Source of the DNA: Branchiostoma floridae
Lineage: Eukaryota > Chordata > Leptocardii > Amphioxiformes > Branchiostomatidae
Direction of reading: 5' to 3'
Length of the DNA stretch: 64,000 bases
Assembly (NCBI RefSeq): GCF_000003815.2
Contig: NC_049997.1
Location: forward strand, 3,474,555-3,538,554
The notes beneath the pieces are model-generated. The model did no database searches. It worked only from the letters and a program-made list of their open reading frames with translations, and was not told the DNA's origin. Below, one piece after another: positions 13,094 to 62,525 of the stretch (position 1 is the first letter of the stretch; every line of letters starts with the position of its first letter). Both the position numbers and the translations under genes were made by a program.

Positions 13094-14206
13094 TCACTGG
13101 TGTTTAATTCTCATATGCTTCACGAGGTGGAACTTGTGTTTTGCCTTGTAGTCACACTCTTGACAACTGTAGGGTCTCTCACCGGTGTGACACCTCCTGT
13201 GTCTAGTAAAATCGGGCTTGCGAGCTGTGCTGTAGTCACATTCCTCACATTTGTAGAGTTTCACACCAGCATGGTTTATCATATGTTTCTCAATGTCTGC
13301 ATTTTGTTGGGATTGGCATTCATACAGTTCCCATCTGTAAGGTTTTTGACTAGCGTGCTTTTTCATATGCCTCACTACACTTCTTTTATAAGATGTCTTA
13401 TAACCGCATTCATTACACCTGAACGATTTCTCACCGGTGTGTGTTCTCATGTGTTCGTCAAGTTGGTGTTTATCGCGTGCCTTATAACCACATTCATCGC
13501 ACATGAAAGGTTCATCCTTTTTGTGAAGTTGTCTATGCCTAGAGAGGTTGAGTGCGTATGATGTTTTAAATCCGCACTCGTCACACACGTAGCGTTTGGT
13601 ATCTATAATTCCAGAGTTCTTACTAGAAAGGATGGACACCCTGTTCTCACAATCCTGGCCTGGAGTCGGTTCATAAAAAGGTAAGGTGGCTATTTCAGTA
13701 TTTATTGTTTCACTTTGTTCATATCCACTGTTAATGAATCCAGCCACATTATCACAACGTTCAGGCTGATTCAGTCTTTGCCCGATTTGATCATCCTCGG
13801 AATCGTTGCATTCCATCTTTATACGTACGTCACAATGGTCTGGAGTCGGTACACAAGAAGGCGCAATTTCCAGTCCAGAACTTTGCAGTGAGGTGCAAGG
13901 ATCTGAACTTGAAGTCTCTGATGACATTGTTTCAGCGTACGTGGTCGGAATGTTCTCATGTATTGTTACTGTTTCTTGTTCTTGTTCAGGTATTGTCATT
14001 TCTGATCGCCTTTCCAACACACGATATTCCTCCAACATCACGTCCCTAAGGATACTGACCAGCCTGTCCTTGATGCTGTTCTCTTTGTCCAGGTTTTGAA
14101 TCCTTCTGTTGAGTTCAAACATCAGCTCCTCCGTGTTCAGTCTGGGGAGGACTGCTATGGTCACCACGCGCGAGAGGCCACAGATGAACTCCTGTTGTCC
14201 CGACAT
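13094..14206 (-). CDS. ZF-1: QQEF-domain C2H2 zinc-finger protein, 370 aa
   Basis: Probable nuclear DNA-binding regulator. The start is the MSGQQEF methionine at 14206: a consensus acceptor (tccttcag) ends one base before it, so the upstream in-frame Met is intronic. Residues 1-66 are the shared N-terminal domain (CGLSRVVTIAVLPRLNTEELMFELNRR, split here by its own variants). The linker carries RIKMEC, a psi-K-x-E SUMO-type site. Six C-terminal finger positions follow. Helix residues -1/2/3/6 are Y/L/N/R, D/H/Q/E, Y/R/S/R, (broken), R/P/D/R, H/F/H/K. Finger 4 has Trp in place of the first Cys and a displaced second Cys (YRWELYEC), so it should not bind zinc. The reading frame is otherwise intact. 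Confidence 0.9.
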   Translation of the reverse strand: MSGQQEFICGLSRVVTIAVLPRLNTEELMFELNRRIQNLDKENSIKDRLVSILRDVMLEEYRVLERRSEMTIPEQEQETVTIHENIPTTYAETMSSETSSSDPCTSLQSSGLEIAPSCVPTPDHCDVRIKMECNDSEDDQIGQRLNQPERCDNVAGFINSGYEQSETINTEIATLPFYEPTPGQDCENRVSILSSKNSGIIDTKRYVCDECGFKTSYALNLSRHRQLHKKDEPFMCDECGYKARDKHQLDEHMRTHTGEKSFRCNECGYKTSYKRSVVRHMKKHASQKPYRWELYECQSQQNADIEKHMINHAGVKLYKCEECDYSTARKPDFTRHRRCHTGERPYSCQECDYKAKHKFHLVKHMRIKHQ

Positions 14207-14315
14207 GCTGAAGGACATGTATGAGAAATGAAATTTGTGTCAAGAAATGTAAACCATACAATAAGAATGTCCACTAGTACCACTTCACCAAAAGACTGAG
14301 GCTATTGACACGCAA

Positions 14316-14576
14316 AGTCTGTCAATTACCCTGGGAAACCAAACTCAGAGCCGGCATGCAAAGAGTTATCGATCCACCTCACACGCACACCCGCCCCACT
14401 ACCAGCTGGTCCCACTTATATATTCTGGCCCTCAACTGTCCACTTGCAAGTGATAGTTGGGGCCAGCTGGATTGTCGGGCAGGCGGGCGGCCCTTGTTGC
14501 GGCGGGCGGGTGTCGGTAAGTCTCTTTTGCACGCCGACTCTTAGGAGTTTGGTTTTCCCCAGGATATCTGTCAATA
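14316..14576. mobile_element. MITE in intron 1 of ZF-1
   Basis: CCTGGGAAACCAAACTC at about 14329 is mirrored by GAGTTTGGTTTTCCCCAGG at about 14544. A second, inner palindrome centred near 14444 (CCACTTGCAAGTG core) lies inside. It accounts for part of the extra length of this intron (about 780 bp). Confidence 0.65.
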
Positions 14577-14987
14577 CGATTTTTTGCTCACTCTTCACAG
14601 GCTAAGCCTGTCAAAAAGAATCGTTTTCCCACCATTATAAGCGTGTCAATAAGAATTTATTTTTCTGTTCACTGTTTGTTTGTTTGTTTATTTAAACATA
14701 ACCCTAACCTTTATTTTATTACCCTAATACTAATCGTGTACAACTGAGTGGTAGAAAAATCATGTAAAATGCATATGGTTCAAATAAAATAACTTCTTCG
14801 CTAGGGAGAAAACTGCGTTTTGTAGTGGGATGCCCCCCTCCCCACATAAGCGTTCACCTCCTCTTTACATTTAGAAATTGCCTATGAATAACATTAACAG
14901 CGTTACGGTGATCCTTTTCCCACCAAAATGACCTTAAACTCTCTCGCACGTTATCAGAATACTTGGATGCGCGTTTGTAAGTCTTAC

Positions 14988-18625: not shown

Positions 18626-19001
18626 NNNNNNNNNNNNNNNNNNNNNNNNNNNNNNNNNNNNNNNNNNNNNNNNNNNNNNNNNNNNNNNNNNNNNNNNNNN
18701 NNNNNNNNNNNNNNNNNNNNNNNNNNNNNNNNNNNNNNNNNNNNNNNNNNNNNNNNNNNNNNNNNNNNNNNNNNNNNNNNNNNNNNNNNNNNNNNNNNNN
18801 NNNNNNNNNNNNNNNNNNNNNNNNNNNNNNNNNNNNNNNNNNNNNNNNNNNNNNNNNNNNNNNNNNNNNNNNNNNNNNNNNNNNNNNNNNNNNNNNNNNN
18901 NNNNNNNNNNNNNNNNNNNNNNNNNNNNNNNNNNNNNNNNNNNNNNNNNNNNNNNNNNNNNNNNNNNNNNNNNNNNNNNNNNNNNNNNNNNNNNNNNNNN
19001 N
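18626..19001. other. Assembly gap
   Basis: 376 undetermined bases. Open frames reported across it have no meaning. Confidence 1.
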
Positions 19002-20433: not shown

Positions 20434-21417
20434 TCATTTTTTCTTCTTTTTGTTTTTATTTTTGTGGGGTTTCACACCAGCGTGGCACCTCATTGTGTGC
20501 TTCTTGATGTCAGGTTTTCGATATGTCGTGTAATCACAGATTTTACATCTGTAAGGTTCCTCACCTGCGTGCTTTTTCAAATGAGCAACCAGGTCGACTT
20601 TGTATGCCGTCTTGTAGTCGCATTGGTCGCACTTGAACGGCTTCTCCCCAGTGTGCGTTCGCATGTGTTCTACAAGACGGAACTTATGGTATGCCCTGTA
20701 GCCACATTCGCCGCACAGGAAGGGCTTTCGTCCTTTGTGACGCCGCATGTGCGCGGCCAGATTTTGTCGGTACATTGTTCTTAATCCGCATACCTTACAC
20801 GCGTAGGGCTTAAAATCGGTTGAAATATCGTAAATTGGATAATCAATGGGCTGGTTACTCTGCATATGGCCTTGGTCATGCCCGCTGTTGATGGAACCAG
20901 TGTCTCTGTCGTCCGTACAGCTTTTAGCATGATCCGGGTTGGGCGGTATAGAAACTTGCCCGATTTGATTTTGTTCGGGCATAGGACTTTCCCGCTTATG
21001 TATGTCACCGTTGTCGAGAGTCGGTTGACGAGAAGCCAAGGGTGCTTCATCACAGGGTTGATCGCCTTCCGGGGGCTTATCTGAGCGAGAAGCATCCATT
21101 GAATTGGTTGTATCTAGACCTTGCGTACTTGCAATATTGTTCAGTTCGTTGTTATGACGAGCCCTGGCTGCTTCATCCTCGGTCTTCATCGTCATGTCGT
21201 CTGCAGAACTGACCTGTGACTTCTTCAACTGACGGTATTCCTCCAACATCAAATCCTTAAGGATACTGACCAACCTGTCCTTGATGCTGTTATCTGTGTC
21301 TAGATCTTTAATCCTCCTGTTGAGTTCGAACATCAGCTCCTCCGTGTTCAGTCTGGGAAGGACTGCTATGGTCACCTCGTGCGAGAGGCCACAGATGAAC
21401 GCTTGTTGTCCTGGCAT
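20434..21417 (-). CDS. ZF-2: QQEF-domain C2H2 protein with shortened C-terminus, 327 aa
   Basis: Starts at the MPGQQAF methionine directly behind a ttttgctttag acceptor. The N-terminal domain is intact with several private changes (KDLDTDNSIK). The linker is acidic; the usual IKMEC module is eroded to HKRES. Four fingers are complete: helix residues Y/Q/N/A, H/F/R/E, Y/V/D/A, R/P/D/K. After the fourth finger the frame reads CHAGVKPHK and ends in an Asn/Lys run encoded by an A-rich tract, so fingers 5 and 6 are lost. About 60 bp downstream (20370-20400 on minus) a GERPYCCQK-like remnant of the last finger survives. Promoter and N-domain are better kept than the 3' end; it may still make a four-finger protein. 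Confidence 0.85.
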   Translation of the reverse strand: MPGQQAFICGLSHEVTIAVLPRLNTEELMFELNRRIKDLDTDNSIKDRLVSILKDLMLEEYRQLKKSQVSSADDMTMKTEDEAARARHNNELNNIASTQGLDTTNSMDASRSDKPPEGDQPCDEAPLASRQPTLDNGDIHKRESPMPEQNQIGQVSIPPNPDHAKSCTDDRDTGSINSGHDQGHMQSNQPIDYPIYDISTDFKPYACKVCGLRTMYRQNLAAHMRRHKGRKPFLCGECGYRAYHKFRLVEHMRTHTGEKPFKCDQCDYKTAYKVDLVAHLKKHAGEEPYRCKICDYTTYRKPDIKKHTMRCHAGVKPHKNKNKKKKK

Positions 21418-24167: not shown

Positions 24168-25352
24168 ATGTCCAGACAACAGGAGTTCATCTGTGGCCTC
24201 TCGCACGAGGTGACCATAGCAGTCCTCCCCAGACTGAACATGGAGGAGCTGATGTTTGAACTCAACAGAAGGATTCAAAACCTGGACACAGAAAAGAGCA
24301 TCAGGGACAGACTGGTTAATATCCTTAGGGATGTGATGTTGGAGGAATATCGTCAGTTGGAACGAAAGTCACAAATCGGTTATCAAGACAAAATGACAAT
24401 CCCTGCTCAAGAATTGGAGGCAAGTACCATGCATGACAGTGGTACGATTGCGTATGTTGAGATAGTGCCCTCAGCTTCTGGCACTCCTACCTTCAGTACG
24501 CAGGTGCTAGATACAAACAGTGCAACGAGTAATTTTTGCATAGATAAGCCTTTGGAGAAAGCCTGCGAGGAAACACCTTTGGTTTCTTTTCAACATTTTC
24601 AAGACCACAATGACATACCCTTGAAGATGGAATGCCATGTGTCACAGGATGATCAAATCAGCCAAACTTCTGAAATGTCCAGCCCCGATTTTCTTGAGCA
24701 TTATACTGATGACAGAGAGACTTGTGCCATGAACAGCAAGTGTGAACAAGATGAACAAATCAGAAGTGAGGACACACCTTTGCCTTCAGGTCAACCGACT
24801 CCAGGCCAGTTTCTTCTTCCTGACAATGACTCACGAATTGATTGCGAACGCTACACGTGTGACGTGTGTGGATTCAAAACATCATTTGCACAGGAATTCT
24901 CCAAGCATAAACAATGCCACAAAGGAGGAAAACCTTTCTTGTGCGACAAATGTGGTTACAGGGCATCAGAGAAGTACCAGCTGAATTGTCATATTGTCAG
25001 AAAACACACGGGAGAGAAACCGTTCAAGTGTAATCAATGCAACTTCAGAACAGCGGTTAAATGCCGCCTATCCCAGCATTTGAAAAGGCACACAGATGAA
25101 AAACCTTACAGTTGTGAAATTTGTGACTACAGGACCTACCGAAAGTTTGATGTTAAGACACACATGAGGCGCCACGCTGGTGTGAAACCCTACAAATGTG
25201 AGGAATGTGACTACAGGACAGCTTATAAGCCTGGTCTTATCAGGCATAGGAGGTGTCACACTGGTGAGAGACCCTACAGTTGTCAAGAGTGTGACTACAA
25301 GGCAGCTGAAAAGGGTAGCCTTGTCAGGCATATGAGAAACAAGCACCAATAA
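24168..25352 (+). CDS. ZF-3: QQEF-domain C2H2 zinc-finger protein, 394 aa
   Basis: Starts at MSRQQEF; the acceptor tgtctttcag precedes the ATG by one base and an upstream in-frame Met is intronic. The N-terminal domain is close to the family consensus (TEKSIRDRLVN is private). The linker of about 180 residues carries PLKMECHVSQDDQI, a psi-K-x-E module shared by most copies. Six intact fingers: helix residues -1/2/3/6 F/Q/E/K, E/Y/Q/C, V/C/R/Q, R/F/D/T, Y/P/G/R, E/G/S/R. The second finger has a longer His spacing (HIVRKH). First of three neighbouring plus-strand copies. A polyadenylation signal AATAAA is at 25647. Confidence 0.93.
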   Translation: MSRQQEFICGLSHEVTIAVLPRLNMEELMFELNRRIQNLDTEKSIRDRLVNILRDVMLEEYRQLERKSQIGYQDKMTIPAQELEASTMHDSGTIAYVEIVPSASGTPTFSTQVLDTNSATSNFCIDKPLEKACEETPLVSFQHFQDHNDIPLKMECHVSQDDQISQTSEMSSPDFLEHYTDDRETCAMNSKCEQDEQIRSEDTPLPSGQPTPGQFLLPDNDSRIDCERYTCDVCGFKTSFAQEFSKHKQCHKGGKPFLCDKCGYRASEKYQLNCHIVRKHTGEKPFKCNQCNFRTAVKCRLSQHLKRHTDEKPYSCEICDYRTYRKFDVKTHMRRHAGVKPYKCEECDYRTAYKPGLIRHRRCHTGERPYSCQECDYKAAEKGSLVRHMRNKHQ

Positions 25353-27055: not shown

Positions 27056-30000
27056 ATGAGTTCTTCAAACAGCTACATTAGCTCTTTGGAGCCTAATGAC
27101 CGAACCAGGTATTTTGAGAAATTAATGGTAAGTGTCGAAGACGCCGGCGATAGTTCAAACCCGGAAGTGACTGGTTCGGCGGTGACTGGTGACGGTGTAC
27201 GACTACCTGACCCATACAGTCTGACAGGTGAGGATCATGTGTACATGTGTTTCTAGATTTTGATAAGGTAGATTTTTGTGTCAGATAAAGGTTACAAAAA
27301 CATGAGTACGTGTAAATGTGTTTGTTGCTAATCTCTAGAAATTCTGGCTACGTAACGTTATGTTTATTATCATTTGTATGTTATACAGGTTGGAAGGATG
27401 ATTTGAGCCTCTGGCCAGATACGGACTATGGGTGCATCTACACCTACCTAATCGAGGCTCCAGGTCCGTTTAACGGAGAAGCCATGAAAGCCTATAAATC
27501 CCTGGAGGCGTACAATCTCTTTATAAGTGGCCATGTGAGGGAGTGCAGGTACCACCCTATTGGAAAAAATGTGAAGGTCTGCTTCCTTAAGGCCAAGGTT
27601 GTGCCAGGTGGGTGTTGGAGTGCATTGGAACAATATTTCTACTTACATGTACCTGTAGTGAGAACTCTTGAAGATGAAGAATGAGATGCGTGATTAGTAT
27701 TTAACTGTCAGATACGTTTTTATATTTACTGTATTATCTTTTTTTTCTGTTACATTTGTGTTTCAGGACAGAGAGTAACAGAGACTCCTCACAACCCATG
27801 GGTGTGTTTGACCAAAAAAGAGGGTTATGTCATGGCAGCTCACTGCACTTGTATGGCAGGGTAGGTAATATAACTGCATTGACCATCATATCCAAAAAGT
27901 CACATTTTTATCTAACAGTGTTCTCGTCAGATGAGGTCCATGGCAAGAAACAGTTTTAGAAATAATGAAAGTCAAACTAGTACTCACCTGTAAATGTTCC
28001 TCCGTATATTTCCAGGGAGGAGCGACCATGCAGTTTGTATGTGGCAAGATAACTGTCTTAATTTTTTTCCTTGGTTCATGTTCTTGTGCTTGATGGTTTC
28101 CAGTTGTATTTGTACCTGTTGCAAATGCATTTCTTCTTGTTGATGTTCTTGTTGCAGTTTTTACTTGTTGATGTGTTTCGTTTTCTAGGTAATTTGGAGT
28201 TATCAACAGTTCCTGAGAGTGAGTATACTAACACATATCATCATGTAGATGTAGATAATGCTAAAAGAAATGTGTATATAGTAGAAATATTCAAATATCA
28301 CAGAGACTTCCATAATGAGAAGATAAGGCAAATCTTTCATTGTACTGTGAAGCTGGCCAACTTATCCGTTCCTTTTACCATTAACTCTAAAATTGCTCCT
28401 GACTATAGTACCTATAATGTATACTCATTTTTTGTTATATTTCAATGTAGATTGGGAGAGGTCTGCAGCCATGTGGCTGCACTGCTGTTCGCAGTGGAGG
28501 CCTCCAGGTCTCTTCAGGAAAAACGGACGTCATGCACCAGCAGAAAGGCCGTGTGGAACAAATATTACAAAGATAAGGTCTGTTCATATTTGGGCATTAT
28601 AATGAGTAGAATTTTTTTCCAAGGTCAACAATTTTTTGCCTAAGTAGACTGTTATAACTTACATTAATGAATGGATTTCTTTGCTTCTACAAAATCATGT
28701 GGCATTTACATGTATCCAATTCACAATATATAGCACTACACTATAGATTTACAGCAATATAGTAGATGTTCCTAGCCTGGAGTCCAGCCTTGTTGTGCTT
28801 TAGTCCACTCCCAACGGTGGCTACCCCGTCAATGCCATGGGGTAGCGACCTTTGGGAGCGAACTAAAGCACAACAAGGTTGGACTGCAGGCTAAGATGTT
28901 CCTCTTTGTAAAGTGTAATATCTGACATGGCCACTGTATAATGCTTTTTCTCACATATATTATTGATAATTCATTTTGTGGATTATTTCTTTCAGGTTGA
29001 TCCACAAAGGGCTGAGGACATGGACTTTTCGCACCCTAAACATGGAGTCCAGATCAAGAAGGCGCGCCGGAAGCCGCAGTGTGATGTGCCACCACTCAGT
29101 GAAGAAGAGGCCGCTTCTGCTTTCTCACAACTGAGGAAGCTGTGTCCCACTGCCAGTGCTGTCATTAAAGAGGAGGAGGACACAGACACAGCATCAGAAG
29201 ATGAGTCAGATGTCAACACAGAGACGCTTCCCCCTGTGGTATACAGGTCTTGTCATCCAGCCAAAGTCCCTGTTACTAGTGTTAGTGTAGACAGCATCCT
29301 TGAGGATGTTCGGTGCAACCCCGAGCAAATCACAAACCTCAACAAAGCTACAGTGGGGCAGTCCAAGTCTGCTTTATGGCGTCAGCAACGCAAGGGTCGT
29401 GTGACTTCTACATCCATGCATGATGTCCTTCATGCATCAAACCCCACCACTGCAGTACGGAAGGTCATGCAATATGACTGCAAGGATTTGAGCCAAGTGA
29501 GTTAACTGAAAACTAGTACAGTGTACACTTGCAGGAAGCCATTTTTCGTAGGTAATTAAGGCACACAAAGAGACAACATTACCCTGTATATTGGAACATG
29601 TACCATAATAATCCCAGAGCAAGTGTAGCTCTGATCTTTATTTGGATTTAAACAATACCAGGAGTCTAAATATTTCTGCAAAGTGTGACAGTCTAAATGT
29701 TCAGTCAATGCGAGATAGTGTCATATTAGAGATGTAATTCATTTGTGCTTTCTATGTCAGAAATTCTAAATAGGGAATTTCACTTTCAGGTTCCAGCTAT
29801 ACAATGGGGGATGAAACAGGAGGAGAAGGCAAGGCAACAGTACCTGGAAGCTACCTTGTGCATCTGCAAGGATGTGAAATTGGAGGAAGTGGGGCTCATT
29901 CTCTACAAGGATTTTCCCTTCATAGGTATAGCTAATTTTGGCTCTTACTTCAAACTTATGAAGTATAGTACATGTAATTGAGTACCAACTACACAATGTC

Positions 30001-30230: not shown

Positions 30231-30232
30231 GA

Positions 30233-34243: not shown

Positions 34244-35179
34244 ATGCCCGAACAACAGGAGTTCATCTGTGGCCTCTCGCACGAGGTGACCATAGCAGTC
34301 CTCCCCAGACTGAATATGCAGGAGCTCATGTTTGAACTCAACAGAAGGATAACAGGTCTTGACAAAGAGAACAGCATCAAGGACAGACTGGTTAGTATCC
34401 TTAGGGACCTGATGTTGGAGGAATACCGTCAGCTGGAAAGGAAGTCAAAATTCTGTTCTTCAGACGAAATGACGACAACCGTTCAAGAACTCGAGACAGT
34501 GACCGTGCATGATAGTTTTTCGATCGCGTTCGTCGATACAATGTCGTCAGCTTCAAACAACCCCACTTTCATAACGCAGGTGCTAGATACAAATATTCCA
34601 ACCAGTAATTCTTGCGCAGAAAAACCTTCAGAAGGAGACATAGCCTGTGAGGAAACACCTTTGGAACATCGGGAGACATATTTGGCTTGTCAACCTATTT
34701 CAGAGCAGGCTTCTGAGAACAAGGCCTCTCCTCTTACTGACAATGGTTCACGAATTGGTCGCAAACAGTATCTCTGTGACGTGTGCGGATTTAAAACCTT
34801 GTACGCTAGCAGTTTCTCCATTCACATTAGAACACACACGGGGGAGAAACCGTTCCAGTGTAGTCAATGTGACTACAAGTCGATATCTAAAGGAGACCTA
34901 GCTCGCCATTTGAAAAGGCACACGGAGGAAAAACCTCACAGTTGTGAAATGTGTGACTACAAGACCTACCGAAAGTCAGATCTAAAGACGCATATGAGGC
35001 GCCACACGGGTGCAAAACCCTACCAATGTGAGCAATGTGACTACAAGACAGCTTATCAGCCTGGTCTTGTCAGGCATAGGAGGCGTCACACTGGTGAGAG
35101 ACCCTACAGTTGTCAACAGTGTGACTACAAGGCAGGAGATAGGTCCTGCCTTATCAAGCATATGAGAAAGAAACACTAG
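34244..35179 (+). CDS. ZF-4: QQEF-domain C2H2 zinc-finger protein, 311 aa
   Basis: Starts at MPEQQEF one base behind the acceptor gtttccctgcag. The N-terminal domain has Gln for Glu (NMQELMFEL) and RITGLDKEN. The linker is the shortest of the live copies: the IKMEC/EDDQI module is absent and no psi-K-x-E site is seen. Five intact fingers, with helix residues Y/S/S/I, S/G/D/R, R/S/D/T, Y/P/G/R, D/S/C/K. One finger has been lost after the first: finger 1 ends HIRTHTGEKPF, a junction normally found after finger 2. Intron 1 is 7.6 kb because of the transposon insertion. AATAAA at 35495. A duplicate of a last finger lies just past the stop. Confidence 0.92.
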   Translation: MPEQQEFICGLSHEVTIAVLPRLNMQELMFELNRRITGLDKENSIKDRLVSILRDLMLEEYRQLERKSKFCSSDEMTTTVQELETVTVHDSFSIAFVDTMSSASNNPTFITQVLDTNIPTSNSCAEKPSEGDIACEETPLEHRETYLACQPISEQASENKASPLTDNGSRIGRKQYLCDVCGFKTLYASSFSIHIRTHTGEKPFQCSQCDYKSISKGDLARHLKRHTEEKPHSCEMCDYKTYRKSDLKTHMRRHTGAKPYQCEQCDYKTAYQPGLVRHRRRHTGERPYSCQQCDYKAGDRSCLIKHMRKKH

Positions 35180-38515: not shown

Positions 38516-39712
38516 ATGTCCAGACAACAGGAGTTCATCTGTGGCCTCTCGTACAATGTGACCATAGCAGTCCTCCCCAGACTGAACATGGAGGAGCTGA
38601 TGTTTGAACTCAACAGAAGGATTCAAAACCTGGACAAAGAGAACAGCATCAAGGACAGGCTGGTCAGTATCCTTAGGGATGTGATGTTGGAGGAATACCG
38701 TCAGTGGGAAAGAAAGTCACAAGTCAGCTGCTTCCCGGACGAGACAACCACACCTGTGCAAGACCAGGAGACAGCTACCATGCAAGAGGACACTCCAACC
38801 TCACACACAAACACAATGCCCTTCACTCCTGACAACAATTTGTTAGATACGAATCATTCAGTGAGTAACTCTTACATAGAGGAGACTTTAGAAGAGGATG
38901 AACCCTGTGAGGAAACACCTACGGCTTCTTGTGAACTGATACCTGACCATGTTGATGTATGTAAGTGGGAATGTCATGTGTCCGAGGATGATCACATCAG
39001 ACAAATTTCTCCACAGTCCGACTCCAACCCGGGTCGTCTTGAACAACATACGGACGACACTCACAATGGATGCACATACAGCGGATATGAACTGAGTCAC
39101 AACATAAAAAGGGAGGAAACACCTTCGGCTTCTTGCCAACCCACTCCAGACCAGGATTGTGAGGACATTGCATCACTTCTTCCTGACAATGGCTCACGAA
39201 TCAGTTCCAAACGCTACGTGTGTGACGTGTGTGGATTCAAAACATCATTTGCACACGAATTCTCCCAGCATAAGAAAAGTCACCAAGGAGGAAAACCTTT
39301 CATTTGTGGCGAATGCGATTATCGTACATTATATAAGACCCGGCTTGTCGAACACATGAGGACCCATACCGGTGAGAAACCGTTCACGTGTGACCAATGC
39401 CACTTCAGCGCGACATGTAAAAGTTCGCTAGTCGGGCATATGAAAAAACACACAGGTTCAGAACCTTACAGATGTAAAATCTGTGACTACCAAACCTATA
39501 CAAAGTTTCAAATTAAGAGACATATGATGCGCCACTCTGGTTTGAAGCCATACAAATGTGAGGAATGTGACTACAGGACAGCTCAAAAGCCTGATCTTAC
39601 TAGACACAGGAGGCGTCACACCGGTGAGAGACCCTACAGTTGTCAAGAGTGTGACTACAAGGCAACAGTCAAGTCCAACCTTCTTAAGCATATGAGAAGC
39701 AAACACCAGTGA
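38516..39712 (+). CDS. ZF-5: QQEF-domain C2H2 zinc-finger protein, 398 aa
   Basis: Starts at MSRQQEF behind the acceptor tttcccttcag. The N-terminal domain differs from consensus mainly at SYNVT (for SHEVT). The linker has NIKREE, a psi-K-x-E site, while the usual module is changed to CKWECHVSEDDHI. Six intact fingers: F/H/E/Q, Y/T/R/E, C/S/S/G, T/F/Q/R, Q/P/D/R, V/S/N/K at -1/2/3/6. With ZF-3 and ZF-4 it forms the plus-strand trio; its promoter and intron are the closest relative of ZF-4, which lets the ISL2EU insertion be dated after their duplication. Confidence 0.94.
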   Translation: MSRQQEFICGLSYNVTIAVLPRLNMEELMFELNRRIQNLDKENSIKDRLVSILRDVMLEEYRQWERKSQVSCFPDETTTPVQDQETATMQEDTPTSHTNTMPFTPDNNLLDTNHSVSNSYIEETLEEDEPCEETPTASCELIPDHVDVCKWECHVSEDDHIRQISPQSDSNPGRLEQHTDDTHNGCTYSGYELSHNIKREETPSASCQPTPDQDCEDIASLLPDNGSRISSKRYVCDVCGFKTSFAHEFSQHKKSHQGGKPFICGECDYRTLYKTRLVEHMRTHTGEKPFTCDQCHFSATCKSSLVGHMKKHTGSEPYRCKICDYQTYTKFQIKRHMMRHSGLKPYKCEECDYRTAQKPDLTRHRRRHTGERPYSCQECDYKATVKSNLLKHMRSKHQ

Positions 39713-43331: not shown

Positions 43332-44858
43332 TTATGACTTGTTGTTTCTGGTTTTTAACTGAGAGTTCCGCTGGTGTTTCTTTCTGATATGCGTGATCAG
43401 GCTGCTCTGGACAGTTGCTTTGTAGTCACACTCTTTACAACTGTAGGGTCTCTCACCGGTGTGACGCCTCCTGTGTTTAACAAGATCGCCCTTGTAAGTA
43501 GTTCTGTAGTCACATATCTCACATTTATAGGGTTTCACACCAGCGTGGCGCATCATATGTGTCTCAATGTGTGAGTATCGGTCGGACTGGTAGCCACAGA
43601 TTTCACATCTGTAATGTTTTGCATCTGTTTGTTTCATATGTGTCATCATGATATGATCGACTAGATTTCTTTTACATGACGCCTTGTAGTCACAATGATT
43701 GCAGTTGAATGTTTTTTCGCCAGTGTGTGTTTTCATGTGTTCAACAAGCCAACATCTGTGGTATGCCCTGTAACCACATTCGCCACACATGAAAGGTTTT
43801 TCTCCTTTGTGACGTTGCCTATGCTTGGACAGTTTCTGTGCAGATGGCGTTTGGAATCCGCATACGTCACACACGTAGTGTTTAGAATCGATTCGTGAGT
43901 CATTGTCAGGAATGAGGGGCTCTTGTTCTGGAGTCGGTTCACAAGAAACCAAAGGGGCTTCCTTAATACTATCTTTTCCACGTTCTTCTGGTCCGCCATT
44001 TGAGAAACCAGTCCCCCTGTCATCCACATAATGTTCAGGATGATCCAGGTTGGACAGTTGAGAGATTAGGTCGATTTGATCATCCTCGGACACATGGGTT
44101 TCCAACTTTATGTGCACGCCACTGTGATCTGTAATCGACTGACAAGAAGCCAATTGTGTTTCCTCATAGGTTTGCTGTCTCTCCAAGGGTTTCTCTGTGT
44201 AAAAATTACTCCACGGATTAATTGTATCAAGTAACTGCGAACGTAATGTAGAAGTGTCTTCCTCAGTTGTCGTAGCAAAGTCTTCTTCTTTAATACGAGA
44301 GTCTGCTGTGGCATCCTTTTGTGTCAGAGAGGTATCATAACAAGGAAGTGCTGCCGGACCTGGAATGGGTGTGTCAAAAAGTTGCTTATGTTGTGAAACA
44401 GTCAGCTGTATCTGGTTTGTATTAGACTCGGGTTCATTTGTGATCATTGGCACTTCTCCACTTGCATCACTGTTTTCAGTGTTGATAACACTGTCTGGCC
44501 CAGAGCTCTGCTGTGAGGCATCATCAGGACCTAACATGTTTGTTGGCCCTGTTTCAGTGTATTCGGTCAGACCGTTCTCTTGCATCGTTTCTGTATCCTG
44601 TTCATGTTCATGTGCAGGCCCAATGGTTTGATTTGGAAATCCATCTTTTGCCACCGACCTATTTTCCATCTGACGGTATTCCTCCAACATCACGTCCCTA
44701 AGGATACTGACCAGTCTGTCCTTGATGCTGTTTTCTTCGTCCAGGTTTTGAATCCTTCTGTTGAGTTCAAATATCAGCTCCTCCATGTTCAGTCTGGGGA
44801 GGACTGCTATGGTCACCTCGCGAGAGAGGCCACAGATGAACTCCTGTTGTATGGACAT
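43332..44858 (-). CDS. ZF-6: QQEF-domain C2H2 zinc-finger protein, 508 aa
   Basis: Longest copy. Starts at MSIQQEF behind the acceptor ttgtccttcag. The N-terminal domain is near consensus (ELIFELNRR). The linker of about 270 residues keeps two psi-K-x-E modules, RIKEEDF and HIKLETHVSEDDQI. Six intact fingers: S/Q/K/K, H/C/W/E, C/R/N/D, R/S/H/T, Y/G/D/K, V/S/S/T. Finger 3 has a longer linker (MMTHMKQTDAKHYRC) in place of the usual THTxxKPYRC. A short extra tail (RNSQLKTRNNKS) follows the usual KKHQ end because the customary stop is lost. Confidence 0.93.
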   Translation of the reverse strand: MSIQQEFICGLSREVTIAVLPRLNMEELIFELNRRIQNLDEENSIKDRLVSILRDVMLEEYRQMENRSVAKDGFPNQTIGPAHEHEQDTETMQENGLTEYTETGPTNMLGPDDASQQSSGPDSVINTENSDASGEVPMITNEPESNTNQIQLTVSQHKQLFDTPIPGPAALPCYDTSLTQKDATADSRIKEEDFATTTEEDTSTLRSQLLDTINPWSNFYTEKPLERQQTYEETQLASCQSITDHSGVHIKLETHVSEDDQIDLISQLSNLDHPEHYVDDRGTGFSNGGPEERGKDSIKEAPLVSCEPTPEQEPLIPDNDSRIDSKHYVCDVCGFQTPSAQKLSKHRQRHKGEKPFMCGECGYRAYHRCWLVEHMKTHTGEKTFNCNHCDYKASCKRNLVDHIMMTHMKQTDAKHYRCEICGYQSDRYSHIETHMMRHAGVKPYKCEICDYRTTYKGDLVKHRRRHTGERPYSCKECDYKATVQSSLITHIRKKHQRNSQLKTRNNKS

Positions 44859-47508: not shown

Positions 47509-48855
47509 TCACTGGTGTTTGTGTCTCATATGCTTGGCGAGGTCGGACCTAACTTTTGTCCTGTAGTCACAATCTTGACAACTGTAGGGTCTCTCATCTG
47601 TGTGACACCTCATGTGTTTACTAATATCGCCCTTATAAGCTGTCCTGTAGTCACATTCCTTACATCTAAATGGTTTCTCGCCGGTGTGTGTTCTCATGTG
47701 TTCGACAAGTTGATACTTGTAGCGTGCTCTGTAACCACATTCGCCACACAAGAAAGGTTTTTCTCCACTGTGACGTTTTGCATGCTTAGTAAGATAACGC
47801 GCATGTGTTGTGTTGAATCCGCACACTTCGCACACATAGCGTTTACTATCTACTCGTGAGTCATTGTCTTGAGGAAGGAATGTCATATTCTCACAATCCT
47901 GGTCTGAAGTTGGTTGACAAGAAGTCAAAGGTGTTTCCTTGCTACTATCTTTACCACTTAGCTCGTGTCCACTGTTGATAAGAGTCTGATTGAAACCATT
48001 TTCCCTGTCATCAGTATAGTGTTCAGTTTGATCCGGGTTTGAAGCTTGAGACATTTGCCGGATTTGATTATCCTCGGACACATGACATTCCATTTTTACA
48101 TGTATGTCACCGTGGTCTGGAGGCAGATGACAAGAAGCCGAAGGTGCTTCCTCACAGATTGTCTCTGAGTAAGCAGAATTCATTGAATTGAGTGTATCCT
48201 GCAACTGAGCAATACATATAGGAGTGTCAATGTTGAGCTCATCATGACAAGCTCTAGCCGCTTCATCCACAGTTGTCATAGCAGCCTCTTCTTCTTTAAT
48301 ATTACATCCATCTGTGCTATACATTTGTGGCAGGGGTTTTTCGGATGTAGGAAGTGTTGGGGGGCCTCGACTGTGCATGTTACAAAGCTGAAGTTGTTGC
48401 GACACCTTCAGTTGTATTTGGTTTAAATGCAGCTCTAGATCCTTCGTATGCATAAGTACTTCATTGTTTGCTTCACTTTCTGTCTTTATCACAATGTCCG
48501 GTCCAAAACTTTGCTGTGAGGCGTAAGGACTTGAAGTCTCTGATAACGTTGTTTCAGCATTCTCAGTCAGAACGTTCTCTTGCATGGCCATGGTAGCTGT
48601 CTCCTGGTCTTGCACAGGTATGGGCGTTTTGTTTGGAGAACTGACTTCTGAATTCCTTCTTTCCAACAGACGGTATTCCTCCAACATCACGTCCCTAAGG
48701 ATACTGACCAGCCTGTCCTTCATGCTGTTCTCTTTGTCAAGGATTTGAATCCTTCTGTTGAGTTCAAACATCAGCTCCTCCATGTTCAATCTGGGGAGGA
48801 CTGATATGGTCACCTCACGTGAGAGGCCACAGATGAACTCCTGTTGCTTGGTCAT
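47509..48855 (-). CDS. ZF-7: QQEF-domain C2H2 zinc-finger protein, 448 aa
   Basis: Starts at MTKQQEF behind the acceptor tgtcctttag; in-frame Mets further up are intronic. Long linker with three psi-K-x-E modules: VIKTESEANN, NIKEEEAAM and HVKMECHVSEDNQI. Only four fingers: H/R/Y/K, Y/Y/Q/E, Y/G/D/K, V/S/D/K. Compared with six-finger copies, the middle two are missing: finger 2's THTGEKPF linker joins a finger-5-type CKECDYRTAYKGD. All four fingers have complete C2H2 sets. Confidence 0.93.
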   Translation of the reverse strand: MTKQQEFICGLSREVTISVLPRLNMEELMFELNRRIQILDKENSMKDRLVSILRDVMLEEYRLLERRNSEVSSPNKTPIPVQDQETATMAMQENVLTENAETTLSETSSPYASQQSFGPDIVIKTESEANNEVLMHTKDLELHLNQIQLKVSQQLQLCNMHSRGPPTLPTSEKPLPQMYSTDGCNIKEEEAAMTTVDEAARACHDELNIDTPICIAQLQDTLNSMNSAYSETICEEAPSASCHLPPDHGDIHVKMECHVSEDNQIRQMSQASNPDQTEHYTDDRENGFNQTLINSGHELSGKDSSKETPLTSCQPTSDQDCENMTFLPQDNDSRVDSKRYVCEVCGFNTTHARYLTKHAKRHSGEKPFLCGECGYRARYKYQLVEHMRTHTGEKPFRCKECDYRTAYKGDISKHMRCHTDERPYSCQDCDYRTKVRSDLAKHMRHKHQ

Positions 48856-50195: not shown

Positions 50196-51560
50196 TCACA
50201 TGTGTTTCGATCTCATATGAGCAAACAGATTGGACATGACAGTTGCCTTGTAGTCACACTTTTGGCAACTGTAGGGTCTCTCACCGGTGTGACGCCTCTT
50301 GTGTTTGATAAGATCGCTTTTCTTAACTGTACTGTAGTCACATTCCTCACATTTGTGGGGTTTCACACCAGTATGGCCCATTATGTGCTTCTCAATGGCT
50401 GACTTTCGGAAGGTCTGATAGTCACAGAGTTCACAGCTGTAAGGCTTTGCGGCTGTGTGTCTTTTCATATGCTGGACTAGATTCCTTTTGAATGACGTAT
50501 TGTAGTTGCATTGATTACACTCTAACGGTTTTTCGCCAGTGTGTGTTCTCATGTGTCCGACAAGTTGGTACTTATATCGTGCCCTGTAACCACATTCACC
50601 ACACATGAAGGGCCTTTCTTCTTCGTGGCATTGCCTATGCTTTGAGAAACTGAGAAAAGGTGGTTCCTCGCTACTGTCTTCTCCGCATTGCTTATCTCCG
50701 CTGTTTATGGAACCAGCAGTGTCTCTGTCATTAGAATAGTCTGGGTTTGAAAGTTGAGACATCTGCCCGATATGATCATCCTCTGACACATGGCATTCCA
50801 TATTTACATGTACACCGTGGTCTGGAGGCAGATAACGAGATTCCGAAGGTGCTTCCTCACGTGCACGGGGTGTATCGTTTTCCACAGGCATCTCTGAGTA
50901 AGAGGTATCCATTGAATTAATTGTATCCTGCACCTTCGTACTGAATGTAGGAGTGTCGATGTTAAGCTCATCATGACGATCTCTAACTGCTTTATCTGCA
51001 GTCGTCATAGCAACATCTTCTTCTTTAATGTGACATCCATCAGCACTATTCATTTGTGTCATGGGGATTTCGGGTGTGGAAAGTGTTTCCAAGCCTAAAC
51101 TGGGCCTGTTACAAAGTTGATCTTGTTCCGAAACAGTTGGCCGTATTTGGGCTGACTCCGAGTCGAGATCCTTTGGCTTTGAATGAATGAGCACTTTATA
51201 GTTTGTATCATGTTCCTTCTTTATCACACTGTGCTGTCCAAAACTTTGCTTTAAAGCATCAGGACTTGATGTCTCTGGAGTCAAAGGGTTCTTCTGCATG
51301 GCAGCTGTTCCCTGGCCTTGGTTAGGTATGGTCGTTTCGTTTGGAGAACTGACTTCTGAGATTCTTTCCAATTGACGGTATTCCACTAACATCACGTCCC
51401 TAAGTATACTGACCAACCTGTCCTTGATGCTGTTCTCTTTGTCCAGGTTTTGTATCCTCCTGCTGAGTTCAAACATCAGCTCCTCCATGTTCAGTCTGGG
51501 GAGGACTGCTATGGTCACCTCGTGCGAGAGGCCACAGATGAACCCCTGTTGTCTGGACAT
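50196..51560 (-). CDS. ZF-8: QQEF-domain C2H2 zinc-finger protein, 454 aa
   Basis: Starts at MSRQQGF behind the acceptor ttttccttcag. The N-terminal domain has QGF for QEF and ELSRRI. Linker modules: VIKKEHDT and HIKEEDVAM (psi-K-x-E); the third is HVNMECHVSEDDHI with the Lys replaced by Asn, which would remove that site. The first finger is reduced to its last part (LSFSKHRQCH), so five intact fingers follow: Y/Y/Q/G, F/R/N/Q, R/S/A/K, K/S/D/K, V/S/N/A. The deletion joins the linker directly to the finger helix in frame. Confidence 0.93.
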   Translation of the reverse strand: MSRQQGFICGLSHEVTIAVLPRLNMEELMFELSRRIQNLDKENSIKDRLVSILRDVMLVEYRQLERISEVSSPNETTIPNQGQGTAAMQKNPLTPETSSPDALKQSFGQHSVIKKEHDTNYKVLIHSKPKDLDSESAQIRPTVSEQDQLCNRPSLGLETLSTPEIPMTQMNSADGCHIKEEDVAMTTADKAVRDRHDELNIDTPTFSTKVQDTINSMDTSYSEMPVENDTPRAREEAPSESRYLPPDHGVHVNMECHVSEDDHIGQMSQLSNPDYSNDRDTAGSINSGDKQCGEDSSEEPPFLSFSKHRQCHEEERPFMCGECGYRARYKYQLVGHMRTHTGEKPLECNQCNYNTSFKRNLVQHMKRHTAAKPYSCELCDYQTFRKSAIEKHIMGHTGVKPHKCEECDYSTVKKSDLIKHKRRHTGERPYSCQKCDYKATVMSNLFAHMRSKHM

Positions 51561-53095: not shown

Positions 53096-53564
53096 CTTCA
53101 CTGGTGTTTCTTTCTCATATGCCTGACGAGGTTGGACTTATCTATTGACTTGTAGTCACACTCTTGACATTACTGTAGGGTCTCTCACGGGTGTGACGCC
53201 TCTTGTGCCTTGTAGGACCCAACAACTTTGTTTGCCCTGTTTCAGCGTACGCGGTTGGAACTTTCTCTTGTATGGTTTCTGTCTTTTGTTCAGGTTCATG
53301 TCCATGTTCAGGTTCATGTCCAGGCACACTGGTTTGATTTGGAGAGCCTTCTTCTACCACCGACCTTTCTTCCAATTGGCGGTATTCCTCCAACATCACA
53401 TCCCTAAGGTTGCTGATGGACCTTTCCTTGCTGCTGTTCTCTTTGTCCAGGTTTTGATTCCTTCTGTTGAGTTCAAATCTCAGCTCCTCCGTGTTCAGTT
53501 TGGGGAGAACAGCCATGGTCACCTTTTGCGAGAGGCCACAGATGAACTCCTGCTGTCTGGACAT
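53096..53564 (-). pseudogene. ZF-9: zinc-finger gene copy with internal deletion
   Basis: Begins like its relatives (MSRQQEFICG behind an acceptor) but the N-terminal domain carries unusual changes (RFELNRRNQ, SSKERSISN). A large deletion then joins the early linker (TGQTKLLGP) to the end of the penultimate finger (TRHKRRHTRERPYS). Two extra bases after PYS shift the frame so the last finger is not read, giving a 140-residue product with no complete finger. If made, it would be an N-terminal domain without DNA-binding part, possibly a dominant interfering form; relaxed change in the domain argues for plain decay. Confidence 0.85.
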
Positions 53565-55139: not shown

Positions 55140-56390
55140 TCACTGGTGTTTGCTTCTCATATGCTGGACGAGGTTGCACTTGACTGTCGCCTTGTAGTCA
55201 CACTCTTGGCAACTATAGGGTCTTTCACCGGTGTGACGCCTCTTGTGTTTAATAAGATCGCCCTTGTGAGCCGTTCTGTAGTCACATTCCTTACATTTGT
55301 AGGGTTTCACGCCAGAGTGCCGCATCATATGTGTCTCAAAGTTTGACTTACGGTGGGTTTGGTAGTCGCAGATTTTACATCTGTAAGGTTCTGCGTCTGT
55401 GTGTGTTTTCATATGATAGAATAACTCTTGTTTATATGATGTCTTGTAGTTGCAGTGATTACACTTGAACGGCTTCTCGCCAGTGTGTGTTCTCATGTGT
55501 TCGACGAGTCGATTCTTATTGTGTGCCCTGTAACCACATTCGCTGCAGATCAAAGGATTTTCTTGTTTGTCAAATTTCCTATGCTGGGAGAGACTGCATG
55601 CGCGTGTTGTGTTGAATCCGCACAAATCTATTCGTGAGCTACTGTCCGTAAGAAGAGACTCAGTGCTCTCACAATCTCCATATGGGGTCGGTTCACAAGG
55701 AGCCAAAGGTGTTTCCCCACTACTTTCTTTTCTACTGTGCTCTTTAATGAAACTAGTCTCTCTGCCGTCAGCATAATATTTAGTTTGATCCGTGTAAGGT
55801 TGAGAAACTTGCCCAATCCAGATTTGATCATCCTCAGATACATGACGTTCCATTTTTATATGTACGTCACCGTGGTCTGGAGGCAGATGACGAGAAGCTG
55901 ATGGTGCTTCCTCACAGGGTGTATTGCTTTCCGCATGCTTCTCGGAGTAAGAGGTATTCATTAAAGTAAGTGTATCCTGCACCTGCGTACTGCAGGTAGG
56001 AGTGTCGATGTTGAACTCATCATGACAATGTCTACCTGCTCCATCCGACAGCTGTGAGGCATCGAAACTTGAAGTCTCTGATACCATTGTTTCAGCGCAC
56101 GCAGTCAGAACGTTCTCTTGCATGATAGCTGTCTCCTGATTTTGCACAGCAATAGTGACTGTCTTTTCTTCTGGGGAACTGACTTCTGACGTCCTTTCCA
56201 ACAGACGGTATTCCTCCAACATCACGTCCCTAAGGATACTGACCAACCTGTCCTTGATGCTGTTCTTTTTGTCCAGGTTTTGAATCCTTCTGTTGAGTTC
56301 AAACATCAGCTCCTCCATGTTCAGTCTGGGGAGGACTGATATGGTCACCTCATGGGAGAGGCCACAGATGAACTCCTGTTGTCTGGACAT
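55140..56390 (-). CDS. ZF-10: QQEF-domain C2H2 zinc-finger protein, 416 aa
   Basis: Starts at MSRQQEF directly behind gttttccttcag; no in-frame Met lies upstream. N-terminal domain near consensus (LDKKNSIK). The linker lacks the IKKE and IKEED modules but keeps HIKMERHVSEDDQI. The first finger has lost its leading part including Cys 1 (DLCGFNTTRACSLSQHRKFD also lacks the last His), so it is dead. Five intact fingers: N/N/R/E, Y/Q/E/Y, R/S/N/T, H/G/D/K, V/C/N/Q. Intron 1 (about 2.8 kb) has collected four transposon insertions without touching the coding exon. Confidence 0.93.
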   Translation of the reverse strand: MSRQQEFICGLSHEVTISVLPRLNMEELMFELNRRIQNLDKKNSIKDRLVSILRDVMLEEYRLLERTSEVSSPEEKTVTIAVQNQETAIMQENVLTACAETMVSETSSFDASQLSDGAGRHCHDEFNIDTPTCSTQVQDTLTLMNTSYSEKHAESNTPCEEAPSASRHLPPDHGDVHIKMERHVSEDDQIWIGQVSQPYTDQTKYYADGRETSFIKEHSRKESSGETPLAPCEPTPYGDCESTESLLTDSSSRIDLCGFNTTRACSLSQHRKFDKQENPLICSECGYRAHNKNRLVEHMRTHTGEKPFKCNHCNYKTSYKQELFYHMKTHTDAEPYRCKICDYQTHRKSNFETHMMRHSGVKPYKCKECDYRTAHKGDLIKHKRRHTGERPYSCQECDYKATVKCNLVQHMRSKHQ

Positions 56391-59983: not shown

Positions 59984-60400
59984 ATGACACACCGCCTTAA
60001 CTTTATGGGTGACATCATCTGGAGAACCCCAAGCTGATGCGCGCGGGAGAAAATTCAGAAGAAAAAAATCCGCTAAACCACAGGACTTAGCGTTCAGTCC
60101 ATTCTTTCCCAGGCTTGATTTGTCCTATGTTCACCACTAGCAAGACTGTAATAGGCAAAAAACGCCATTTCAATCATGTTGTCATTTCTGTTTAAAGAGG
60201 GAACAAGGGCGCTGTGGCCCCACGCTCTAACCATGTGCCCCCTTACCCTGGTGAGCAGATCCTCTAGCAACCATAGAATTCTGATTGACCATGCAGAGAT
60301 GCTATTGACAAGACGCCACAGTTCTCTCTTTTTTTAGATAAGGCGACAATCAATGCGCGCGCGGACGTCATCATAAAATTAAGTCAGTGTGGCCTAAAAG
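59984..60400. mobile_element. MITE-like insertion in the ZF-10/ZF-11 spacer
   Basis: ACACACCGCCTTAACTTTAT at the left is mirrored by ATAAAATTAAGTCAGTGTGG at the right, with subterminal GTGACATC and GACGTCA. The segment is absent from the homologous spacer at about 54720. Confidence 0.6.
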
Positions 60401-61110
60401 ATAATGGCAATACGAGGAAGGTGTGGGGTTTCACATGGGCATTTCTGGCTTGTGCTACACGCACAGACAAAACAAGTTACATCTTGATTCATAAAAATGT
60501 ATTGACAGAGAAGTTAATAACAGTTACCGATGTTAAGTTTTATTGCTGTTGGTGAGTATAGACATACGCAGATACAAACTATTTTAGATTATTGTAAAAC
60601 TAAAATAATACCAGGATACATGCCGTCTATAGTGTTGTTAACATTATTAGTATTACTGTGCTCATTTTTACTTATCTGTTCGTGGTAGTACATACAGACA
60701 CAAACGTGGCGCTAAATCATTAGAGGGTAACTTAAATTACATGCCATTAAAACATTGCAACTCTTTAAAGCTGTGCAAAGTCACTGCAATGATCGAGCCT
60801 GGCTAAAAAACAGAAATAATAAAAAATACAAATGAATAAGTAAATAGGCCAAGTGGATAAGAGGTTGCTACAGAAACGTTTACCACGTTTTATATCTGGT
60901 TTATAGGTAGAAAAATATAGAAAAGAAAGATAAAATACATGTAGGTGACATAAACGCATAAATGAATATAAGGTACAAGAAATGTTTATATATTTTAAAT
61001 TTTTTTTGGTATTTGTATAAAAAAAGTAGATAGATAAAAAAAATAAGAAAAATATAATTTAGACCGTGAATATCTGTGATGTTGATATTCTATTTCTGGT
61101 TGGCAACTGA
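60400..61110. other. Spacer, no gene seen
   Basis: The last 270 bp match the 3' flank of ZF-10 (tandem-duplication unit). The rest is AT-rich. Confidence 0.4.
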
Positions 61111-61118
61111 CAGTGGTT

Positions 61119-62525
61119 TCACTGGTGTTTCTTTTTCATATGGTTGGAGAGGTTGGACCTATCTTTTGCCTTGTATTCACACACTTGACAACTGTAGGGT
61201 CTCTCACCGGTGTGAAGCCTCATGTGTTTAATAAGATCGCCCTTATAAGCTGTCCTGTAGACACATTCCTTACATTTGTAGGGTTTCAAACCCGAGTGGC
61301 ATATCATATGCTGGACTAGATAACTTTTATATGAAGTCTTGTAGTGACACTTATTACATTTGAATTGTTTCTCACCGGTGTGTTTTCTCATGTGTTCGTC
61401 AAGATGGTACTTATACTGTGTCCTGTAACCACATTCGCCACACATGAAAGGTTTTTCTCCTCTATGGCATTGAGTGTGCTTGGAGACACTGTGTGCGAAT
61501 GATGCGTCACACTCGTAGCGTTTTGAATTAATTTGTGAGCCATTGGCAGGAAAAAGAGACTCCATGTTCTCACAAGCCTGTTCTGAAGTCGGTTCACAAG
61601 GAGATGAGAGTGTTTCCTCACTACTATCTTGTCTACTTTGTTCGTGTCCGCTGTTGATTAAACCAGTGTCCCTGTCATCAGCATGATGTTCAGTTTGATC
61701 CGGGTCTGGTGCTTTACTACAATTTTGCCCGATTTGACAATCATGGGAGACATAACTTTCTATCCTTATGTGTATGTTACCGTAGTCTGGAGGCAGATGA
61801 CAAGAAGCCGAATGTGCTTCCTCATTGGGTGCATCGACTTCCACAGTCTTCTCTGTCTGAGAAGTAGTTGTTGGATTACGTGTATCCAGCGCATGCAATA
61901 CCTGCCTACTGGATGTAGGAGTGTCAAAATTGAGCTCGCCATGACAAGGTCTGCCTGCATAATCCTCAGTCAGCATATCAAAGTCTTCCTCTTTAATGCG
62001 AGAGTCATCTCTGTTATTCATTTGCATCAGAGGGGTATGGAACATGGGAATTGCTGGTGTACCTCGACTGGGCTTGTTACAAATTTGATCTTGTTGTGGA
62101 AGAGTCAGCTGTTCCTGCTCTGTATTAAACTCGGGCTCCTTTGTATACACGAGCAAGTTACTGCTTGTATCGCGTTCCTTCTTGATCACAATGTCCAGCC
62201 CAGGACTCTGCTGTGAGGCGTAAGTACTTGAAGTCTCTGATAACATTGTTTCAGCGCACGCAGTCTGAACGTTCTCCTGATTTTGTACAGGTATGATTGT
62301 TTCGTCTAGAGAACTGACTTCTGACTTCTTCTCCAACTGACGGTATTCCTCCAACATCACGTCCCTAAGGATACTGACCAGCCTGTCCTTGATGCTATTC
62401 TCTTTGTCCAGGTTTTGAATCCTTCTGTTGAGCTCAAACATCAGCTCCTCCATGTTCAGTCTGGGGAGGACTGCTATGGTTACCTCGTGCGAGAGGCCAC
62501 AGATGAACTCCTGTTGTCCGGGCAT
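61119..62525 (-). CDS. ZF-11: QQEF-domain C2H2 zinc-finger protein, 468 aa
   Basis: Starts at MPGQQEF behind the acceptor ttttccttcag. N-terminal domain at consensus. Long linker with VIKKERDT and RIKEEDFDM (psi-K-x-E); the third module is HIRIESYVSHDCQI with Lys changed to Arg. The first finger is broken: RYECDASFAHSVSKH lacks the second Cys segment. Four intact fingers follow: Y/Y/H/E, Y/S/Y/Q, Y/G/D/K, D/S/N/N; the finger-4 type (CKICDYQT) is deleted between the second and third of these. It has the least interrupted intron 1 (about 360 bp). Confidence 0.93.
   Translation of the reverse strand: MPGQQEFICGLSHEVTIAVLPRLNMEELMFELNRRIQNLDKENSIKDRLVSILRDVMLEEYRQLEKKSEVSSLDETIIPVQNQENVQTACAETMLSETSSTYASQQSPGLDIVIKKERDTSSNLLVYTKEPEFNTEQEQLTLPQQDQICNKPSRGTPAIPMFHTPLMQMNNRDDSRIKEEDFDMLTEDYAGRPCHGELNFDTPTSSRQVLHALDTRNPTTTSQTEKTVEVDAPNEEAHSASCHLPPDYGNIHIRIESYVSHDCQIGQNCSKAPDPDQTEHHADDRDTGLINSGHEQSRQDSSEETLSSPCEPTSEQACENMESLFPANGSQINSKRYECDASFAHSVSKHTQCHRGEKPFMCGECGYRTQYKYHLDEHMRKHTGEKQFKCNKCHYKTSYKSYLVQHMICHSGLKPYKCKECVYRTAYKGDLIKHMRLHTGERPYSCQVCEYKAKDRSNLSNHMKKKHQ

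Follow-up and report, generated by a model that had tools for sequence, protein, structure and literature searches.

An amphioxus zinc-finger family headed by an apparently SAP-derived module that also opens retrotransposon ORF1 proteins

What kind of domain heads a tandem family of C2H2 zinc-finger genes in the amphioxus Branchiostoma floridae, and where it may have come from, is the question raised by a stretch of 64,000 nucleotides of contig NC_049997.1 (positions 3,474,555 to 3,538,554; hereafter the window, G000:C19:3474555-3538554 in our numbering). Zinc-finger families that have expanded seem to differ in the N-terminal module that they recruited, and the origins of these modules are mostly unknown. 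An initial annotation of the window, made from the letters alone, had proposed that eleven loci begin with the same unrecognised, mostly helical module, followed by an acidic linker and a variable set of fingers. The explanation that we consider best, and rather probable, is a lineage-expanded C2H2 family built on a derived SAP-type domain that is shared with the ORF1 protein (ORF1p) of retrotransposons, a family whose members would act as DNA-targeted repressors.

The eleven loci are borne out by tblastn, which recovers 11 full copies of the ~66-residue module in the window (79-96% identity, E 5e-33 to 1e-43; mean column identity 87%), the next-best match having an E value of 0.78. Ten of the 11 modules open an intact single-exon open reading frame (ORF) of 311-508 residues, in which module, acidic linker and 4-6 strict C2H2 fingers in tandem follow one another (Table 1). 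The fingers match zf-C2H2 above the Pfam cut-off in 3/3 window proteins scanned, and the linker is acidic in 10/10 intact genes (D+E 17-51, K+R 8-23). A (C/T)AG splice acceptor ends one base before the module ATG in all 11 copies and, because it precedes the ATG throughout, the coding part of the window genes probably forms a single 3' exon preceded by a leader intron; no leader exon was found for them. Across all 45 pairs of the ten intact window genes, the ratio of non-synonymous to synonymous change (dN/dS) is 0.26 for the module, 0.34 for the fingers and 0.57 for the linker.

The family is larger than the window. A search of the genome with the module as query (513,431,437 bases in 431 contigs, threshold E<=0.001, all counts being lower bounds) finds at least 85 module places, comprising 50 close copies (>=74% identity) and 35 distant ones (38-53%), 3 of the latter being retrotransposon copies. 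Counted by hand, the 50 close copies fall on C19:3353708-3657507 (38), C15 (7), C9 (2), C194 (2) and C172 (1), and the window lies inside the 304-kb cluster formed by the first 38. The tandem expansion that had been proposed from the window thus stands, and we take both the architecture and the expansion as established. Locus DNA was examined for part of the 85 module places. Nineteen distant host loci (L009-L027) were read, and C2H2 fingers follow the module at 12 of them: at 5 the fingers share the frame of the module (2 to 23, counted with the strict pattern), and at 7 they lie on the same strand past the end of the module frame (3 to 16), where the module exon would be spliced to a finger exon. 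The remaining 7 have no fingers within the 2.2-3.5 kb examined. An acceptor-like AG was seen by eye shortly 5' of the ATG in 11/16 distant loci. Since fingers accompany the module at distant loci, it is a domain associated with zinc fingers throughout this genome, and the window cluster is a young single-exon branch. Two features of distant loci may be recorded alongside. At L025 (C19:11025500-11030000), and also at L023, fragments of the start motif (SQDVTLTPDPRPL) are repeated before the module as a short coding tandem repeat, and L015 and L016 (C19:12375620 and 12465487) are near-identical module genes ~90 kb apart, either a recent duplication or an assembly duplicate. For the comparisons that follow, 78 module matches in overlapping loci were reduced to 51 distinct ones after one short copy was dropped, and later sets, from which L038_1289, L038_1402 and two SAP genes (L061, L065) were excluded, hold 47 modules; hmmscan of whole proteins covered 3 of the 10 intact window proteins and 8 distant proteins.

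What the module is can be answered only through its relatives. No Pfam match to KRAB, ZAD, SCAN, BTB or SET at E<=10 was found for the 11 modules or for 3 full window proteins, as the initial annotation had anticipated, and the window modules have no meaningful direct match in Pfam or the PDB. In this direct sense the domain is indeed unrecognised; intermediates, however, point from it to SAP (PF02037), which to our knowledge is not a zinc-finger-associated domain. A profile of 22 modules, distant ones included, has a single PDB match at E<=10, 1ZRJ (E1B-55kDa-associated protein 5; E 0.11), aligned in register (RLymeElllELgRRni...kedLvevLrd against RLKVNELREELQRRGL...KAELAERLQA), and the 1ZRJ stretch as query also finds Hcc-1, MKL1 and THO1; the matching stretches of all four are SAP domains. 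Searched with Pfam SAP (gathering cut-off 23.9 bits), the genome yields 42 places, among them C11:1494242 (25.5 bits) and C3:31554248 (24.2 bits) above the cut-off and C5:14088276 below it, all three being ORF1-like modules with 58-62% identity to a retrotransposon ORF1 module. A fourth, C3:23043538, scores 23.6 bits, or 24.0 with its neighbours, and belongs to a locus with two tandem modules (L069, C3:23042300-23044600), where it lies ~0.7 kb upstream of the second; the second is followed by C2H2-like sequence, and the first stands at the edge of the SAP cut-off. In a direct Pfam scan the C11 copy matches SAP with E 1.4e-5 (25.0 bits) and the C3 host copy with E 3.6e-5 (23.7 bits); the ORF1 module of the element L028, described below, has no Pfam match at E<=10.

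The same gradation is seen when module sets are aligned by hhalign against 14 SAP rows (with one odd C3 copy excluded from the sets): 4 ORF1 modules reach 94.6%, 24 other loci 50.4% and 24 core modules 2.7%, all three sets scoring above all 60 column shuffles, and the ORF1 set reaches 98.0% against the core and 99.0% against the other loci. An ORF1 module as query matches all 11 window copies (E 2.7e-5 to 0.0067), and the SAP-like relatives match the window family over ~60 residues. Because ORF1 modules match both SAP and the core family, the putative homology of the module to SAP is transitive, strong at each step and weak from end to end. It appears that the module is a derived SAP-type domain, a two-helix core with an added N-terminal helix, rather than a canonical SAP domain. 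The two appear to share a helical pair that reads L-x-(V/M)-x-E-L-x-x-E-L-x-R-R ... K-x-x-L-x-x-x-L and lines up in register, whereas the module adds an N-terminal helix with a GLSxEVTxAVLP motif and a long C-terminal helix and has lost the basic charge, and the window copies have a longer loop without the glycine. An AlphaFold2 model is helical, as had been predicted, with three helices (13-22, 25-37, 44-70) instead of two.

Several observations weigh against a SAP origin. Pfam SAP has no match at E<=10 in the 11 window modules or the 3 full window proteins. The core set against SAP alone barely exceeds the best shuffle (14.7 vs 14.1), the confidence of the AlphaFold2 model is middling (mean predicted local distance difference test score, pLDDT, 68.6), and VIA-align, a weak test, found no SAP chain among 15 chains compared. 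The SAP glycine in the turn before helix 2 is near-invariant, and G-x-K precedes helix 2 in 14/14 SAP rows; in core modules this glycine is missing and the loop is longer, the window copies having S-(I/M/S)-(K/R). The mean net charge is -1.4 in core and other host modules vs 0 to +4 in seven SAP domains, and this slightly negative charge speaks against SAP-like DNA binding. It is therefore necessary to consider that the resemblance is convergence of a short helical pattern in an unrelated helical domain, for which the missing glycine and basic charge, the core value of 2.7% and the absence of a direct Pfam match would be the expected signs. Against this, the sole PDB profile match is a SAP domain, and the relatives whose SAP scores lie above or just under the Pfam cut-off are the very ones that match the window family, so that we regard convergence as quite improbable.

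The module is not confined to zinc-finger genes, as it also opens the ORF1p, a protein with an esterase domain, of a retrotransposon without long terminal repeats (non-LTR) in the same genome. At L028 (C2:3279908), the module shares a 497-codon frame with a CxxC cluster and an esterase match of the GDSL type (E 1.3e-5, under the cut-off of that family); this frame is overlapped by an ORF with an Exo_endo_phos endonuclease domain (E 6.9e-13). Two copies on C10 have module stretches 100% identical to L028; the DNA of one C10 copy matches L028 at 99.3% identity along 1,678 bases and then leads, past a single in-frame stop, to a reverse transcriptase (RVT_1, E 1.5e-33). L028 and L078 have the non-LTR layout of ORF1 followed by endonuclease and reverse transcriptase (RVT_1 being seen in the C10 copy). 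A second type of ORF1, L081 on C12, joins the module to a different SGNH-type domain (GDSL, E 3.4e-11, above the cut-off), and a copy on C13 carries the same module. The ORF1 of L080 (C6:25588450-25590300) has an esterase that is 59% identical, but its N-terminal half is another, unrecognised one that lacks the module; esterase ORF1s thus do not all carry it. We take the homology of the host module to that of ORF1p as established and, through it, homology to SAP as probable. Given that non-LTR ORF1s carry the module, that the window block contains transposons and that one copy is broken (53564), it could be argued that the window copies are transposon-borne or dead repeats and not genes. Yet 10/11 ORFs are intact, the acceptor is shared by 11/11 copies and dN/dS is 0.26-0.57, and searches of the window with the element's ORF1 (esterase included), endonuclease and reverse transcriptase at E<=1e-3 found nothing beyond the 11 modules and their near flank, which makes this alternative most improbable.

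In which direction the module travelled is a question for trees. These used 6 of 23 core rows and excluded the broken window copy and, in a second tree, the odd C3 copy as well. Rooted with SAP, they put the ORF1 modules on the SAP side of every host module; support for the host clade is 100/100 without the odd C3 copy and 94/87 with it. From these trees, the passage of the module from a retrotransposon into a host gene is favoured, with moderate confidence. The alignments retain 68-69 columns; the fork joining the L028 and L072 modules to the host clade has a support of 80/23; and approximately unbiased (AU) tests do not reject ORF1 monophyly (p-AU 0.46) and, of three trees with ORF1 joined to host branches (p 0.127, 0.0296 and 0.199), reject only one. 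All of this tells against the favoured direction. The reverse, in which the element acquired its module from a zinc-finger gene of the host, would mean that the shared domain says nothing about transposon defence. It gains from the AU tests, which do not reject ORF1 inside some host branches, and from the distribution of the module, which occurs at many host loci and in only some esterase ORF1s, L080 having another N-terminus. Since the ORF1 modules resemble SAP most closely in the series and branch outside the host clade, we think the reverse direction unlikely and retain transfer from element to host as the working direction.

What such a family might do is suggested by how its parts have changed. 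The finger contact positions -1, 2, 3 and 6 differ in 0.73 of pairs vs 0.40 at other non-ligand positions, an excess reached in 0/10,000 permutations. The module is conserved and the contacts are diverse, and this observed contrast is the pattern to be expected where a common effector end is combined with many different DNA specificities. Two points weaken this reading: diversity is also high at two positions outside the contacts (0.72 immediately before -1 and 0.63 at position 5), and dN/dS at the contacts, although 0.54 vs 0.39 at other finger positions, is below 1. Because the ratio is below 1, we make no claim of positive selection, and the contact positions are relaxed or diversifying. 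It is possible that this is an ordinary tandem family of gene regulators, ZAD-like, that expanded by unequal crossing over and has genes and not transposons as targets, as Drosophila ZAD-ZNFs (zinc-finger proteins) expand without targeting transposons for silencing (PMC10547256). The diversity concentrated at base contacts, as in transposon-targeting families, argues against it without being specific, and we hold this alternative to be somewhat doubtful.

The linkers hint at repression. In the window they contain 14 psi-K-x-(E/D) SUMO-type motifs vs 2.4 expected (0/1000 shuffles; 9 of 10 linkers), a count in which paralogous sites are not independent. The distant loci have 11 vs 3.2 expected, at 7 of 14 loci, reached by 1/1000 shuffles; this sum covers 14 of 16 loci (the near-duplicate L016 and the element L028 being left out), with L011, L017, L023 and L026 not included. 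The smaller excess in the distant loci and the one intact linker without a motif detract from the argument. Together with what is generally known of SUMO-dependent repression, the motif excess leads us to infer a repressor role. Each protein's fingers would bind a different DNA target, the conserved module, instead of reading DNA, would make a protein contact common to all members, either with itself or with a chromatin partner, and SUMO attached at the psi-K-x-E sites of the linker would bring in repressive chromatin factors. The family would act most likely against transposons, as the analogy to KRAB-, FiNZ- and SCAN-ZNFs suggests, and its members may thus be SUMO-linked, DNA-targeted repressors, perhaps of transposons. 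A more tentative scenario, which we consider unlikely as it stands, is that the SAP-type domain of ORF1p was captured by C2H2 genes and that the expanded family polices retrotransposons; as its members would retain the ORF1p module of the element, they could also co-assemble with and poison the ORF1p ribonucleoprotein.

A separate observation concerns the DNA of the module itself, whose synonymous sites are uniform: the third-position difference at identical residues is 0.12, vs 0.29 in the linker and 0.25 in the fingers, and is lower than in the fingers in 43/45 pairs (ten intact modules, 13994-62525). This uniformity, found despite mostly diverged sequence upstream of the acceptor, could reflect local gene conversion or constraint at the nucleotide level. 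A copied repeat that takes in promoter and intron together with the conserved module DNA was considered and rejected, the similarity upstream of the acceptor being patchy.

The window holds a few other features. Just past the end of gene 1, a lone C2H2 finger in another frame (12906-12971, minus strand) is perhaps the remnant of a lost copy. A transposase ORF of 654 residues (4831-6795, plus strand) matches Pfam DDE_1 (E 8.5e-19), HTH_Tnp_Tc5 and HTH_psq and is Pogo/Tigger-like. An ORF at 30133-30669 (minus strand) has matches of the coiled-coil kind and a partial one to HTH_Tnp_4 (E 5.7e-5, under its cut-off) and is perhaps the remnant of a DDE transposon, and the adjoining ORF at 28942-29505 (plus strand) has a weak alkaline-exonuclease match only (E 0.0019). 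Runs of N, gaps or masked stretches, occupy 18626-19001 and 42708-43061.

Table 1. Module-bearing genes of the window (positions within the window; aa, amino acids)
Feature	Position	Strand	Start of module copy	Module	Other content	Length
Gene 1	13094..14206	-	14206-	13994-14206	acidic linker, 5 strict fingers	370 aa
Gene 2	20434..21417	-	21417-	21205-21417	linker, 4 strict fingers; most diverged intact copy, finger array stops early in lysine-rich tail	327 aa
Gene 3	24168..25352	+	24168+	24168-24380	linker, 6 strict fingers	394 aa
Gene 4	34244..35179	+	34244+	34244-34459	short linker, 5 strict fingers	311 aa
Gene 5	38516..39712	+	38516+	38516-38728	linker, 6 strict fingers	398 aa
Gene 6	43332..44858	-	44858-	44655-44858	linker, 6 strict fingers	508 aa
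Gene 7	47509..48855	-	48855-	48637-48855	linker, 4 strict fingers	448 aa
Gene 8	50196..51560	-	51560-	51345-51560	linker, 5 strict fingers	454 aa
Broken copy	53104..53564	-	53564-	53361-53564	module open; no strict finger before the frame stops at 53142; last finger in other frame, 53104-53169	
Gene 9	55140..56390	-	56390-	56175-56390	linker, 5 strict fingers	416 aa
Gene 10	61119..62525	-	62525-	62310-62525	linker, 4 strict fingers	468 aa

Among known systems, the nearest parallel is with SCAN-ZNFs and the nearest lineage-specific one with FiNZ-ZNFs. Homology links SCAN to the gag capsid of Gmr1-like Gypsy/Ty3 elements (PMC4592553), and SCAN-ZNFs thus share with the present family a helical N-terminal module of C2H2 proteins that is homologous to a structural protein of a retroelement; the relative of SCAN, however, is the capsid of an LTR element, whereas here the relative is a non-LTR ORF1p with a SAP-type core and SCAN itself is unmatched (Pfam, E<=10). 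The FiNZ-ZNFs of cyprinid fish are likewise a lineage-restricted, expanded C2H2 family with a conserved N-terminus of its own, FiNZ being described as 28 residues long, on its own exon and without known relatives (PMC10547256), while the amphioxus module has ~66 residues, shares one exon with linker and fingers in the window, and has relatives in SAP and ORF1p. KRAB-ZNFs and ZAD-ZNFs have the same fixed N-terminal module, variable finger array and tandem clusters, but their domains find no counterpart here at the Pfam threshold already given (3 full proteins, 11 modules). On the element side, CR1/L2 ORF1 proteins of the esterase type also have an SGNH-type esterase in ORF1 ahead of an endonuclease-reverse transcriptase ORF2, although the term SAP occurs 0 times in the main texts of the two accounts (PMC4120745, PMC3905857), and a survey of ORF1 in the Jockey superfamily reports esterase ORF1s only in two vertebrate subgroups of its sample (PMC4120745). 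Expansion of C2H2 genes in Branchiostoma in general has been noted before (PMC5588721, PMC12513265). In the open-access papers searched, with subscription journals and Repbase outside the search, we found no earlier account of this module, of a SAP-type zinc-finger family or of an ORF1p bearing SAP.

An apparently orphan module is traced here to what appears to be a derived SAP domain and to the ORF1p of retrotransposons in the same genome, which provides a non-LTR parallel to the LTR-related SCAN domain. The shared module suggests that a protein part is common to parasites of the genome and to genes that may defend the host against them and, if capture by C2H2 genes and policing of retrotransposons both prove true, the family would be a non-LTR counterpart of the SCAN-ZNFs.

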